DNA of 39,117 nt, from NCBI GenBank assembly GCA_035703895.1, contig DASSXJ010000187.1, positions 1 through 39,117 of the forward strand, given 5' to 3'. Positions 4,894-12,695 of the stretch are shown piece after piece. The notes under the pieces are model-generated. The model did not search any database. It was not told where the DNA came from and worked only from the letters and a program-made list of their open reading frames with translations. The DNA comes from a bacterium (lineage in GTDB: Bacteria; Sysuimicrobiota; Sysuimicrobiia; Sysuimicrobiales; Segetimicrobiaceae). Both the position numbers and the translations under genes were made by a program. Within the stretch, counting starts at the first letter, position 1. Each line of letters begins with the position of its first letter.

Positions 4894-4969
4894 GGGCCCG
4901 TAGCTCAGTGGATAGAGCGACCGCCTCCTAAGCGGTAGGCCGTGGGTTCAACTCCCGCCGGGCCCGCCA
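4894..4969 (+). tRNA. tRNA-Arg (anticodon CCU)
   Basis: A complete cloverleaf folds here. The acceptor stem is GGGCCCG/CGGGCCC, followed by a D-arm with GCTC/GAGC, and an anticodon stem ACCGC/GCGGT enclosing loop CTCCTAA with anticodon CCT. The T-arm is GTGGG/CCCGC with loop TTCAACT, the discriminator base is G, and CCA (4967-4969) is encoded. It reads AGG. The gene is intact and keeps its own promoter, while its 3' part is duplicated at 8182-8227, as expected for a tRNA used as an integration site. Confidence 0.97.
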
Positions 4970-4970
4970 G
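4925..4970 (+). repeat. attL-type 46-bp direct repeat inside tRNA-Arg
   Basis: Bases 4925-4970 are identical to 8182-8227. The repeat begins at the first base of the anticodon loop and ends one base after the encoded CCA. Upstream of it the two sites diverge, apart from scattered matches. This is the shape of an attachment site used by tRNA-targeting tyrosine recombinases. Confidence 0.88.
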
Positions 4971-5015
4971 ATTACCAAGGCTTTCCGCATGATCCTCCTC
5001 GGTGTGATCCTGGCT

Positions 5016-8075: not shown

Positions 8076-8181
8076 CGGATACGTCTGGAACCCACCCCTT
8101 TCCCGAGAGCCCAAGCAAATGACCTTCTGGCGGACGAGGGAGGATAGGAGTGGACACCTGTGGAAACTGCCACTAAATCGT

Positions 8182-8227
8182 CTCCTAAGCGGTAGGCCGT
8201 GGGTTCAACTCCCGCCGGGCCCGCCAG
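8182..8227 (+). repeat. attR-type 46-bp copy of the tRNA-Arg 3' part
   Basis: This copy is identical to 4925-4970 and covers the anticodon loop through CCA plus one base. The upstream half of the cloverleaf is absent, so it is not a functional tRNA. Confidence 0.88.
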
Positions 8228-8283
8228 GTTTTTCAAACCGTTCCGTGTGGCCCCGCCGGCAACCCTAATGGGGAGGATTGAGC

Positions 8284-8791: not shown

Positions 8792-9334
8792 CTACCGGCA
8801 CCACTGGTTCCAAGAGCCGTCCGCGCACCGGCGATAGGGGCCGTACGAGTAGCCCCGCCCGGAGTAGTCGTCGGGGTTGTAGTCGCGATTATTGTTGTTG
8901 GGATGATGGAGGATCAGATACGCAAGCCCGCCGAGCAGGAGGCCGCCGATCGCTATACCCACGATGGGTGGCGTGCGTGGGGCCAACACGGTCCCCGGGG
9001 CGGGCTGGGCTGGGGTCACGGAAGCGCCAACATCGACCCTCCCCAGCACAAACTGGTTGTCGCTGGGCGCGACAAGAGCCGTTGCGGGCGCCCCGACCAC
9101 CGACCCAAGCGCGCAGAGCGAAGCGGGCGTCCCATTGGCGTAGATCGCGGTCTGGTTTGTGACCTGAAGCGTCGTTGGACCCCCTGAGGTATTCAGGATC
9201 AGCTGCTGAGTCTGGCAGTCAACTGCCTGAATGGTGCCCTGGATCTGCACGGATTGCAACTGGGCGTTCCCGGTTCCGACCAGCCCCAGGCTCCCGAGCA
9301 GAACCATCGTGATGATCGCGATAAGCCGCCGCAT
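8792..9334 (-). CDS. Exported protein with C-terminal membrane segment, unknown function
   Basis: The 180-residue product has a clear signal peptide (residues 1-24, cleavage likely after GNA). A small beta-rich domain (~28-80) follows: VQIQGTIQAVDCQTQQLIL then TTLQVTNQTAIY, resembling the OB-like repeats annotated as DUF5666-type; two Cys residues could form a disulfide. After a Pro-rich linker there is one membrane helix (~123-141, IVGIAIGGLLLGGLAYLIL) and a tail rich in Asn, Tyr and Arg with two more Cys. GAGGGA precedes the ATG. The topology suggests an envelope protein; no enzyme motif is visible. Confidence 0.65.
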   Translation of the reverse strand: MRRLIAIITMVLLGSLGLVGTGNAQLQSVQIQGTIQAVDCQTQQLILNTSGGPTTLQVTNQTAIYANGTPASLCALGSVVGAPATALVAPSDNQFVLGRVDVGASVTPAQPAPGTVLAPRTPPIVGIAIGGLLLGGLAYLILHHPNNNNRDYNPDDYSGRGYSYGPYRRCADGSWNQWCR

Positions 9335-9463: not shown

Positions 9464-9880
9464 CTATTTCAGCACGTCATCTTGGCGCGGTAGTTTGGTC
9501 ACGTCACTCACTGACGTCTTGGCGCTCGAATCGGGTGCGGCCAATTTCAGGCCGGTGTCAATAAAGTCGGTCCCGTTCTGGGAGAACCGCAGCGATTCCC
9601 CATGATGGTCGCGGAAGAACTGCTGGTCGAACACCTTGAAATAGATTCCGTCCTTGTATGCCCAGTACTTCGGGATGCGAAAGTCGTTGACGTAAAGCGC
9701 CCAACCCTGCGACGTCGCCTCCGGCATCGTCTCAAAGCGGACCTTGACGAGATAGGTGACTGGGGGCAGCGACTTGCTATCGCGCGCGCTCAGGTGCGCA
9801 ATCGCCGCGCTGTCCGCTTCGGTCGGTCGGGTGGCCACGACCTCGACCGCTGTGGCTTTCGGTGGTGTTGACGGTTGCAT
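9464..9880 (-). CDS. Hypothetical protein, second gene of the riboswitch-controlled operon
   Basis: The 138-residue product starts at ATG 9880, 7 bp after GGGGAGG; a TTG two codons upstream is less likely. There is no signal peptide or membrane helix. The central part (YLVKVRFETMPEATSQGWALYV, DFRIPKYWAYKDGIYFKV) looks like a beta-sandwich or similar strand-rich fold. I do not recognise the family. It begins 27 bp after the stop of the alpha/beta-hydrolase gene and has no promoter of its own that I can see, so it should share the c-di-GMP-controlled transcript. Confidence 0.6.
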   Translation of the reverse strand: MQPSTPPKATAVEVVATRPTEADSAAIAHLSARDSKSLPPVTYLVKVRFETMPEATSQGWALYVNDFRIPKYWAYKDGIYFKVFDQQFFRDHHGESLRFSQNGTDFIDTGLKLAAPDSSAKTSVSDVTKLPRQDDVLK

Positions 9881-9907: not shown

Positions 9908-11536
9908 TCATTTGGACACTTGCACATCGCCGACGTAGATCGCGCCGGTCGGTCGCCGATCGAAGACAAACGCGATGGACCGGAGGTCGCTGAGCTCCAC
10001 GCCGCGCTCGGCGAGCCGCTTCAACGGGAGGCGCAAAGTCTGCATGACGATCTTTCCGGCGCCAAACACGACGTCGGGATACAGGAGCCGGTGGAGAGAA
10101 CTCGCCGGAATCGCGGCCGTTCGTGAACCGCTGGACACCTCGATGGTGAAATCTTGATCGCGACTGGCGGCATTCTTTGCTTCCGTGGACTGTCCGACGC
10201 GCAGCGACAGCGCCTTGTACCGTTCCGCGGGCAGGGTCGCCGGGTCCACTTTCAAAAGAAATCGCGCCCCGGGTGCGTTCCATTCCAGGCGAAGCGTAAT
10301 CGTCGTTTGTGGAGCGCCTGCGTTGACGAGATCTTTCAGCTGGCGCGCGGCGACAACCGCGTCGGCGGCGACAGCTCCTTGAACGGGTGACGAGATTTGC
10401 GGGGCGGCGAGGCTTTCCTGATTGTGCTGGACGAAGACCCGCTCGGGATCTTGATACTGCGAGACGAAGTCGGTGCCGGCGGGTACCCACGTCACCGCGA
10501 TGGCATGATCTCGGAGCACTTCCAGATTCTCTGAACGGTCGAGCAGTAGGGCCTGCGCCAATGCTCCAAGATGCACCTTGGCGATGAGCTCTTGGTCGGC
10601 ACGGGGCATTGTCGTAGCGGGCGGCGTCTCCGACGGCCAGACGCTGTTGAACTGGTTGTGGTTCGCTCGATACACCCAGAGCAGGGCCTTCAACTTTCCG
10701 TCGGAAACGGTCGGGTTGGCCAGGTCCACGGCGTGCGCGCGATTGTACATATTGTAGCCTTCGAACGTCGAGACATCTCCATCTCGACTGCCGTGAATCA
10801 GAAAGAAGCGATCCGGTACGACGGTTGGCCCGCTGAGGGGTTGGTATTGCCGGTCGGTCGGGGCGATGGCTGCCACGCCGCTCAGGCCAAAGCGATAGGG
10901 ACCGAGCCCTGCGGAGCCGTCCAGCGGAACCACCGGATGGAAGATATCGGGTTGGATCCCCGTGAGACGATTGAAGAATGAGGCATGCCCCACGCCTTCC
11001 CCGCCTCGCGAATGGCCGAGGATCAGAATACGGTTCAAGTCGACCTTGCCGTGGAGCGGGTGGGTCGCCATTCCATCCCACGTCCGAAACTGTTTGAGAT
11101 GCTCTAGATGAACGATCGCCCTGGCGTCGTTCTCACCGAAATTGAAGCCGTTGAGAAAATTCACGTCGATCGTGGCGGCGATGATTCCGTGCGACGCCAA
11201 CAACGCACACAGATACAGGTATCCCGGAGTCGAGTTCTGGAACGGACTGTGATTGCCGTGAGCGAACACAGCTAGTGGAAAGGGGCCACGACCGCGCGGA
11301 ATGCATACGTGCCCGTTGAGAGGCACGTTCGTATTGAGAAACGGCCATGGCGCGGAGCCTAGGTTCGCGAATGCCGACACATTGATCCGCCCGGTCACAT
11401 AGGCGGGGTCGGGCGAATCGTAGATGTTGTATTGCACCAACGACGGTACCGCGGCGTAGTTGAGGCCGGACGAAGCGTATATCACTGTGTCGAACGGGAC
11501 ATCACCAGCCAGGCCAGGGTTGTTCAGCGGTGCCAT
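9908..11536 (-). CDS. Alpha/beta-hydrolase (esterase/lipase-type) under c-di-GMP riboswitch control
   Basis: The 542-residue product has the oxyanion-side motif VFAHGNHSP, the nucleophile elbow ILGHSRGGEG with Ser ~176, a candidate acid in GSRDGDV (Asp ~252/254) and a candidate His ~293 in YRANHNQFN. The hydrolase domain (~75-370) is followed by a ~170-residue C-terminal strand-rich region, possibly a carbohydrate- or protein-binding beta sandwich. No signal peptide is evident, so secretion is not supported. The ATG at 11536 follows GGAGGAG. Upstream lie a sigma70 promoter, a GEMM aptamer and a hairpin (see those entries), so expression should respond to cyclic di-GMP. The substrate is unknown; the overall pattern resembles dienelactone-hydrolase/PET-hydrolase-like families. 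Confidence 0.78.
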   Translation of the reverse strand: MAPLNNPGLAGDVPFDTVIYASSGLNYAAVPSLVQYNIYDSPDPAYVTGRINVSAFANLGSAPWPFLNTNVPLNGHVCIPRGRGPFPLAVFAHGNHSPFQNSTPGYLYLCALLASHGIIAATIDVNFLNGFNFGENDARAIVHLEHLKQFRTWDGMATHPLHGKVDLNRILILGHSRGGEGVGHASFFNRLTGIQPDIFHPVVPLDGSAGLGPYRFGLSGVAAIAPTDRQYQPLSGPTVVPDRFFLIHGSRDGDVSTFEGYNMYNRAHAVDLANPTVSDGKLKALLWVYRANHNQFNSVWPSETPPATTMPRADQELIAKVHLGALAQALLLDRSENLEVLRDHAIAVTWVPAGTDFVSQYQDPERVFVQHNQESLAAPQISSPVQGAVAADAVVAARQLKDLVNAGAPQTTITLRLEWNAPGARFLLKVDPATLPAERYKALSLRVGQSTEAKNAASRDQDFTIEVSSGSRTAAIPASSLHRLLYPDVVFGAGKIVMQTLRLPLKRLAERGVELSDLRSIAFVFDRRPTGAIYVGDVQVSK

Positions 11537-11567
11537 CTTCGCTCCTCCACCGGAAGAGATTTCGCGC

Positions 11568-11602
11568 AACAATATTAAACGCAACCTCGTTGGAGGTTGC
11601 GT
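11568..11602 (-). terminator. Riboswitch expression-platform hairpin
   Basis: On the minus strand a perfect 10-bp stem (11602-11593 with 11588-11579, beginning ACGCAACCTC, loop CAAC) is followed by TTTAATATTGTT. It lies 21 bp downstream of the aptamer and about 43 bp before the ATG. This is the position and shape of a transcription terminator acting as expression platform, although the U-tract is interrupted. Confidence 0.65.
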
Positions 11603-11623
11603 CTCAGCACGTTTTGATAATTC

Positions 11624-11708
11624 TCTCCTCCGGCAACCCGGCCAGCCTCGAGGGCCCCGTCAGGCTTTGCGTCCCCGAATCGCTTCGGGTTTGCTCTTTC
11701 GGATGAGA
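11624..11708 (-). promoter_or_regulatory. Cyclic-di-GMP-I (GEMM) riboswitch aptamer
   Basis: Read on the minus strand, the 85-nt element carries the GEMM-I core motifs in order: GAGCAAACC, GGGACGCAAAGCC, and GGCCGGGTTGCCGG. P1 forms between TCTCATCCG (11708-11700) and CGGAGGAGA (11632-11624) with one mismatch. P2 is CCCGAA/TTCGGG closed by a GCGA (GNRA) tetraloop, the hallmark loop that docks in this class. The element begins about 11 nt after the predicted transcription start and precedes an alpha/beta-hydrolase operon. Known members bind c-di-GMP and switch transcription or translation; whether this one turns expression on or off cannot be told from the sequence. Confidence 0.92.
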
Positions 11709-11725
11709 CACGATCCCTACGTTTA

Positions 11726-11754
11726 ATTATCGGTGGGGTTCACTGGCCTGTCAA
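11726..11754 (-). promoter_or_regulatory. Near-consensus sigma70 promoter for the riboswitch operon
   Basis: On the minus strand TTGACA (11754-11749), a 17-bp spacer and GATAAT (11731-11726) give a perfect -35 and a one-mismatch -10. The start site would be near 11719, immediately upstream of the GEMM aptamer. Confidence 0.85.
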
Positions 11755-11873: not shown

Positions 11874-12695
11874 TTAATGCGTACCTCCCATCGGTAATTG
11901 GAACGTTGCGCCGTTATTTTTCAGCACCACTTTGTCGGCGAGGATCGAGACCACGACCGCGTCCCCGACGTGCTCGCCGACGCCGGCAATGACGGTCTGC
12001 CCTTCGACGCGAATAATCGCCACCCCGGCGCGGCCCCTCAAGATTCCAGTGACTGTCATTCCTGCCCCCGGCGGGAGCGGGGACGGGCCCCCAGGAGGGC
12101 CGACGCCCAACACGAGCGGGGTCCCGACCAGCGCGGCCGGTCCCGGGACCTCGAAGGTCACGCTGCCCTTCTTCAGTACCACCTTGTGGGCAAGGATCGA
12201 GACTACCACCGCGTCCCCGACGTGCTCGCCGACGCCCGCGATGACGGTCTGCCCTTCGGCGCGGATAATCGCGACCGGAGCGCGGCCCCCCAAGATACCG
12301 GTGACCGTCATTCCTGCCCCGGGCGGTAGCGGGGGGGTGCCCGCGGGGGGGCCGACCCCCAACACTAAGGGGGGCCCGACCTCAGCGGCCGGTCCCGGGA
12401 CCTCGAAGGTCACGCTGCCTTTCTTTAGTACGACTTTGTGGCGAAGGATCGAGACTACCACCGCATCGCCGACATGCTCACCGACCCCGACGATGACGGT
12501 CTGCTCTCCGGTGTCAATAATCGCGACAGGAGCGGTGCCCCCCAAAATTCCGGTGACCGTCATACCCGCCCCGGGCGGTGGAGGCGGCGTTCCTGCCGGC
12601 GCAGCGGCCCCCGCAGACCCGTGCGCCAACGGACCGGCGGCCATTACGAACGCAGCCATCACCCACGACAGCCTGCCAGACCGACGCCGGCTCAT
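11874..12695 (-). CDS. Secreted protein of three tandem PilP/GspC-like domains
   Basis: The 273-residue product has a basic start and a signal peptide (about residues 1-31, ending GSAGA). The rest is three copies of one ~57-residue domain at ~44-100, 128-184 and 212-268, joined by ~27-residue linkers rich in Pro and Gly. Each copy begins MTVTGIL.G, continues through VAII, VGVGEHVGDAVVVSIL and KVVLK, and ends TF..P. The same domain occurs once in the SPOR protein at 3298-4806. The fold resembles the small beta domain of PilP and GspC, which contacts secretins in pilus and type II secretion systems; a triple array alone in a periplasmic protein is unusual. A G-rich run precedes the ATG. The function is unknown; a scaffold in the envelope is a guess. 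Confidence 0.75.
   Translation of the reverse strand: MSRRRSGRLSWVMAAFVMAAGPLAHGSAGAAAPAGTPPPPPGAGMTVTGILGGTAPVAIIDTGEQTVIVGVGEHVGDAVVVSILRHKVVLKKGSVTFEVPGPAAEVGPPLVLGVGPPAGTPPLPPGAGMTVTGILGGRAPVAIIRAEGQTVIAGVGEHVGDAVVVSILAHKVVLKKGSVTFEVPGPAALVGTPLVLGVGPPGGPSPLPPGAGMTVTGILRGRAGVAIIRVEGQTVIAGVGEHVGDAVVVSILADKVVLKNNGATFQLPMGGTH
11892..12566 (-). repeat. Three 252-bp-period tandem repeats
   Basis: The domain copies occupy 12566-12396, 12314-12144 and 12062-11892. DNA similarity is high, especially between the second and third copies, so the duplications are recent or kept alike by gene conversion. Confidence 0.85.

Follow-up and report, generated by a model that had tools for sequence, protein, structure and literature searches.

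A divergent GEMM-I riboswitch ahead of an alpha/beta-hydrolase operon in a Segetimicrobiaceae genome

Introduction

The closest described relatives of the leader reported here are the GEMM-I (c-di-GMP-I) riboswitches. One of them, Cd1, employs an antiterminator/terminator fold, and its position equivalent to Vc2 G20 acts as a factor in cyclic-dinucleotide selectivity rather than as a hard filter; a G-to-A mutation there did not eliminate c-di-GMP binding (PMC9262584). An engineered Vc2 aptamer carrying the G20A change binds cGAMP (PMC6274999, PMC7288161). On the enzyme side, a Ser residue is the signature of the Hypr GGDEF proteins (PMC6456294).

Here, we describe a member of this class on a contig of 39,117 nucleotides (hereafter the window) from a bacterium of the family Segetimicrobiaceae. 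The original prediction, made from the sequence of the window, proposed a complete c-di-GMP riboswitch control region that drives an alpha/beta-hydrolase operon from the minus strand.

Results

A GEMM-I aptamer with its own promoter lies ahead of the hydrolase operon. The RF01051 covariance model, the search suggested in the original prediction, matches 11705..11629 (-) over its full length (model positions 1-87 of 87) with 51.4 bits and an E value of 2.4e-7, above the gathering score of 35 bits, and the whole-genome search returned the identical score. Upstream, TTGACA (11754-11749), a 17-nt spacer, and GATAAT (11731-11726) form a sigma-70-type promoter (11726..11754, -) that agrees with the consensus at 11 of 12 positions; the promoter scan found this one site against a shuffle mean of 0.2. 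At the other end of the leader, the Shine-Dalgarno (SD) sequence GGAGGAG, read from the sequence at 11548-11542 (-), stands 5 nt ahead of the ATG at 11536. Promoter, SD sequence, and start codon are as originally predicted, and so is the rest of the leader anatomy, apart from corrections to the U-rich tail and to G20 and P3.

The aptamer was said to hold all of the core motifs, and most of them are present. P1 pairs 11708-11700 with 11632-11624 (-) through 8 pairs and one A.G mismatch, P2 (CCCGAA/UUCGGG) is capped by a GCGA loop of the GNRA type (11683-11680), and the ligand-contact bases A47 (11668) and C92 (11633) are kept. The exceptions are a 2-nt insertion in P3 relative to RF01051 and an A at 11695 (-), read directly from the sequence as AGCAAACC against the consensus GGCAAACC. 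We take 11695 to be the equivalent of Vc2 G20, a ligand base contact and selectivity position, in the Vc2 numbering of the crystal construct. The score of 51.4 bits is among the lowest in the host's family, in which 60-76 is typical. The aptamer is thus a divergent GEMM-I and should be labeled “GEMM-I, A20 variant.”

Among 93 family aptamers, position 20 is G in 87 and A in the remaining 6; the count includes 9 unparsed rows and 1 misread row that were read by eye. The A20 form occurs in 3 of the 9 aptamers of this genome, compared with 3 of 84 in the other 11 family genomes. In terms of GEMM-I types, the base at 11695 is that of GEMM-Ib (cGAMP) and not the G of the c-di-GMP type (Ia). The genome, which is 97% complete, has 12 GGDEF matches and one EAL domain. 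The Hypr position is Asp, never Ser, in all of the readable GGDEF domains; two of the 12 (L094 and L096) are degenerate there, and their residue cannot be read with confidence. SMODS, the only CD-NTase model tried, gave no match. With none seen in these searches, a Hypr GGDEF or SMODS cGAMP synthase was rejected.

Twenty-four nucleotides past the aptamer, a terminator-like hairpin of 12 pairs (11604-11577, -) is followed by AATATTGTTG. The hairpin of the original prediction is therefore present, whereas its U-rich tail is weak and interrupted (UUUAAUAUUGUUG). In ensemble folding at increasing transcript lengths, this hairpin is ~98% formed with and without an enforced aptamer, and because it folds in both states, its proposed role as a switching terminator is not established.

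A second element competes with the aptamer. The strand UCUCUUCCGGUGG (11547..11559, -) pairs with 11636-11624 when P1 is open, in a 13-bp helix of -19.2 kcal/mol (helix enumeration) that consumes C92 and the P1 3′ strand (11624..11632). When P1 is closed, the 11558-11552 part of this downstream strand is free to pair with the SD sequence in a 7-bp hairpin, since the SD motif GGAGGAG has a second copy within P1 (11631-11625). In ensemble folding, the probability of P1 drops from ~0.6 to 0.03 once 11550 has been transcribed, as the 13-bp helix forms. The unpaired probability of the SD sequence is ~0.24-0.45 in free transcripts. Under an enforced aptamer, it is 0.02-0.22 for most transcript lengths but climbs to 0.38-0.44 for two of them. 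Support for the switch helix is modest and only modestly better than chance: pairing with the P1 strand was equally good in 132 of 5,000 dinucleotide shuffles (p 0.026), and 340 of 4,598 stretches of the window (7%) did just as well. The model is built on a single sequence, without an orthologue for covariation, and its folding energies take no account of tertiary contacts or transcription kinetics.

In a set of 17 leaders of the same class in the family, a strong hairpin with a U-tract is common, mostly 17-25 nt past the aptamer. These true U-tracts suggest that the ancestor of the class probably attenuated transcription by termination and that the U-tract of the present leader has been degraded. 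In the 17 leaders, the terminator arm pairs with the aptamer no better than in shuffles (mean z -0.3). Statistical support for such pairing was thus rejected, which leaves the termination model, too, a proposal.

GEMM-I aptamers occur in all 12 family genomes, at 4-13 per genome, with 9 in this one. Their targets, given with rough ORF calls, include pilin-like, NusG-like, CAP-domain, glycine-rich, and other exported proteins, in addition to an M64 peptidase with FG-GAP repeats, which looks extracellular, and several large proteins without signal peptides. Six leaders (L048, L052, L104, L106, L108, and L075) precede large proteins without a visible signal peptide, the M64 peptidase among them; the target of L052 is at least 1,524 aa long and has no Pfam match. 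No domain common to the large targets was found by blastp, and a contractile injection system as the carrier of the signal-peptide-less proteins was rejected, no sheath gene (PF04984) having been found. In three genomes, three GEMM-I aptamers lie on one strand within ~1.3 kb (L079, G005:C57; L150, G008:C39; L151, G010:C4), adjoining homologues of a 180-aa exported protein; G005 also has a CAP-like protein there.

The hydrolase (542 aa, 9908..11536, -) has a nucleophile elbow G-H-S176-R-G-G and a C-terminal beta domain. Its Ser-Asp-His catalytic residues (S176, D252/D254, and H293) are invariant in 6 sequences. It is followed by the 138-aa partner protein (9464..9880, -), and neither of the two has a visible signal peptide, as had been proposed for the hydrolase. 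The hydrolase matches the PETase family (PF12740) with 21.8 bits, below the curated 28, and the chlorophyllase family weakly, again below the curated cutoff. In sequence, it matches PET hydrolases in the PDB and the protein-asparaginase 9xg1 (1e-12), to which its C-terminal beta domain can be aligned as well, though weakly. A fold match to PETases (E ~1e-7) comes from a predicted model of low confidence (pLDDT 50). The model of the 138-aa protein is confident (pLDDT 80), but none of its PDB matches, which are mostly immunoglobulin/TIG-like, reaches significance (all at E 0.09 or worse), and no fold was assigned on them.

Since the 138-aa gene follows the hydrolase gene at loci in other phyla too, the two genes form a cassette. 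The pair is kept in L009 (Variovorax), L010, L011, L012/L013 (Scytonema), and L015, its hosts being Variovorax, other proteobacterial MAGs, and Scytonema, in addition to a member of the same order as the present host (L015). The L015 version of the hydrolase looks like a lipoprotein (LAQGC), and its partner there carries a signal peptide, which suggests that the ancestral pair acted outside the cytoplasm. The Variovorax locus also encodes, ahead of the cassette, a 765-aa protein with no signal peptide and no Pfam match (L009:1677-3974).

No RF01051 match lies beside the cassette in the 7 homologous loci searched, and a conserved linkage between riboswitch and hydrolase was therefore rejected. 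The cassette is absent from all 11 other genomes of the host's family. To the right of 13.4 kb, the gene block M24-AstE-15620-17340 is syntenic in G002 and G011, which indicates that the contig belongs to the host lineage and led us to reject a chimeric contig; despite this synteny, the riboswitch-hydrolase side was not found in either genome. Within the genome, the leader most similar to this one is L052 (G000:C30), which is 91% identical over 74 nt and has A47 changed. Together with the absence in G002 and G011, this similarity suggests that the unit consists of a duplicated leader fused to a cassette that was acquired. By these comparisons, the linkage of riboswitch and cassette appears to be one lineage's acquisition, confined to one genome.

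An exported protein of 180 aa is encoded downstream (8792..9334, -). No promoter or terminator was found in the 129-nt gap between its gene and the cassette, so it may be the third gene of the transcript. Distant homologues lie directly behind GEMM-I aptamers in G005:C57, G007:C88, G008:C39, G009:C8, and G010:C4.

Two neighboring features of the window deserve mention. The 3′ end of tRNA-Arg(CCT) recurs as a 52-nt direct repeat (96%) at 4922-4973 and 8179-8230, which resembles the ends of a 3.26-kb integrated element with genes for AMIN-domain and SLBB polysaccharide-export proteins. Between these ends is a 23-nt repeat (5016-5038/8029-8051); no integrase was seen. The gene at 11874-12695 encodes an exported protein that weakly matches GspC of type II secretion (PF11356). 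This gene contains three tandem 252-nt repeats (11892-12647) that are 65-82% identical to the reference copy, and it stops 120 nt short of the riboswitch promoter, which is on the same strand.

Discussion

Our best explanation, to which we give about an even chance, is that a hydrolase cassette gained by lateral transfer has come under a divergent GEMM-I switch, which would turn it OFF chiefly at the initiation of translation. The leader would derive from the family's class of leaders consisting of a promoter, a 75-nt aptamer, and a hairpin. When ligand is absent, the P1 3′ strand would pair with 11559-11547, leaving the SD sequence accessible and the switch ON; when ligand is present, P1 would close, and the freed CUCUUCC would fold onto GGAGGAG and turn translation OFF. 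The hairpin at 11604-11577 would then be a weak constitutive attenuator or a spacer. We infer the sign and level of this regulation from the competing helices that folding shows, and OFF control at translation is predicted because, in the folding, the SD sequence is largely hidden only with the aptamer enforced. Against this explanation, A20 and the P3 insertion could also mean a weakened or dead sensor.

The ligand named in the original prediction, c-di-GMP, fits a GEMM-I aptamer, but it is not established, because the equivalent of Vc2 G20, a known selectivity position, is A. As the searches of the genome turned up no cGAMP synthase, c-di-GMP remains the most likely ligand, with a selectivity altered by A20. 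That the leader is a GEMM-Ib-like sensor of cGAMP, or a dual sensor of both dinucleotides, strikes us as quite unlikely: A20 is the base of the engineered cGAMP-binding Vc2 and a selectivity factor (PMC6274999, PMC7288161, PMC9262584), and it is concentrated in this genome, but neither a Hypr GGDEF nor an SMODS-type CD-NTase was seen in the 97%-complete genome, and the equivalent change in Cd1 did not eliminate c-di-GMP binding (PMC9262584). Such a sensor concerns the ligand and would be compatible with either a translational or a terminating mechanism. A mechanism of the latter type, an OFF switch of the Cd1 kind, is unlikely, though far from negligible. Without ligand, 11639-11633 (GGGUUGC, including C92) and 11600-11594 (GCAACCU) would form an antiterminator; with ligand, the aptamer would be held and the hairpin would terminate transcription. 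The 7-bp helix (-9.4 kcal/mol), the dip of the P1 probability to 0.06-0.15 in transcripts ending at 11595-11585, the strong U-tract hairpins of the relatives at mostly similar distances, and the use of such a fold by Cd1 itself (PMC9262584) all argue for it. However, the U-tract is interrupted here, the hairpin, once complete (-18.4), wins over the 7-bp helix and has a probability of 0.98 with or without the enforced aptamer, and the 17 leaders pair no better than their shuffles. We consider it quite unlikely that the leader is a decaying, ligand-blind product of GEMM-I leader duplication behind which the hydrolase is constitutive. The low aptamer score, A20 with the P3 insertion, the changed A47 of the closest paralogue, and the weak U-tract would all be expected of decay, yet P1, P2, the GNRA loop, A47, and C92 are intact, and a strong promoter, the SD sequence, and the strand that masks it are all kept.

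The original prediction also saw in this target an unrecorded c-di-GMP output. As a general output, this is not established, since no homologous cassette elsewhere has the switch and GEMM-I in the family governs so broad a range of exported or envelope-type proteins that an odd target is unsurprising. The riboswitch is of a known kind; its target is unusual, yet limited to one genome. The locus may illustrate how, within one lineage, GEMM-I leaders are reused to bring acquired enzymes under second-messenger control, and the hydrolase belongs to an uncharacterized, apparently mobile two-gene cassette found across several phyla. Judging by analogy from its PET-hydrolase-like fold and from the lipoprotein form in L015, the hydrolase probably acts on an ester or amide that lies outside the cytoplasm. 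We give little credence to a more far-reaching reading, that an A20 GEMM-I with relaxed selectivity or a preference for cGAMP was recruited, in a genome that has no recognizable cGAMP synthase, to control an acquired signal-peptide-less hydrolase. If true, the hydrolase would be one of a wider GEMM-I-driven set without signal peptides (the M64 peptidase, the 1,524-aa protein, and proteins of 750-980 aa), which would hint that these proteins leave the cell by an undescribed route linked to pilus and cyclic-dinucleotide regulation.

The encoded enzyme resembles PET-hydrolase/dienelactone-hydrolase-like enzymes and 9xg1 in its GHSRGG nucleophile elbow and its DGDVS and ANHNxFNSVW motifs, and differs from them in its subthreshold PETase match, its lack of a signal peptide, and its 138-aa partner. 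With the GEMM-Ib riboswitches of Geobacter (pilM and pgcA/Gs1761), the leader shares the A at the Vc2 G20 equivalent. Those are ON switches acting on terminators, whereas translational OFF control is predicted here; moreover, J1/2 is otherwise of the c-di-GMP type, and the searches of the genome gave neither a Hypr GGDEF nor an SMODS CD-NTase. With c-di-GMP-I riboswitches such as Vc2 and Cd1, the leader shares the three-helix aptamer, the GNRA-capped P2, A47 and C92, and a place in the 5′ leader behind its own promoter. It departs from them in carrying A rather than G at position 20 and a 2-nt insertion in P3, in the predicted use of SD masking as the switch, and in having a hydrolase cassette as its target.
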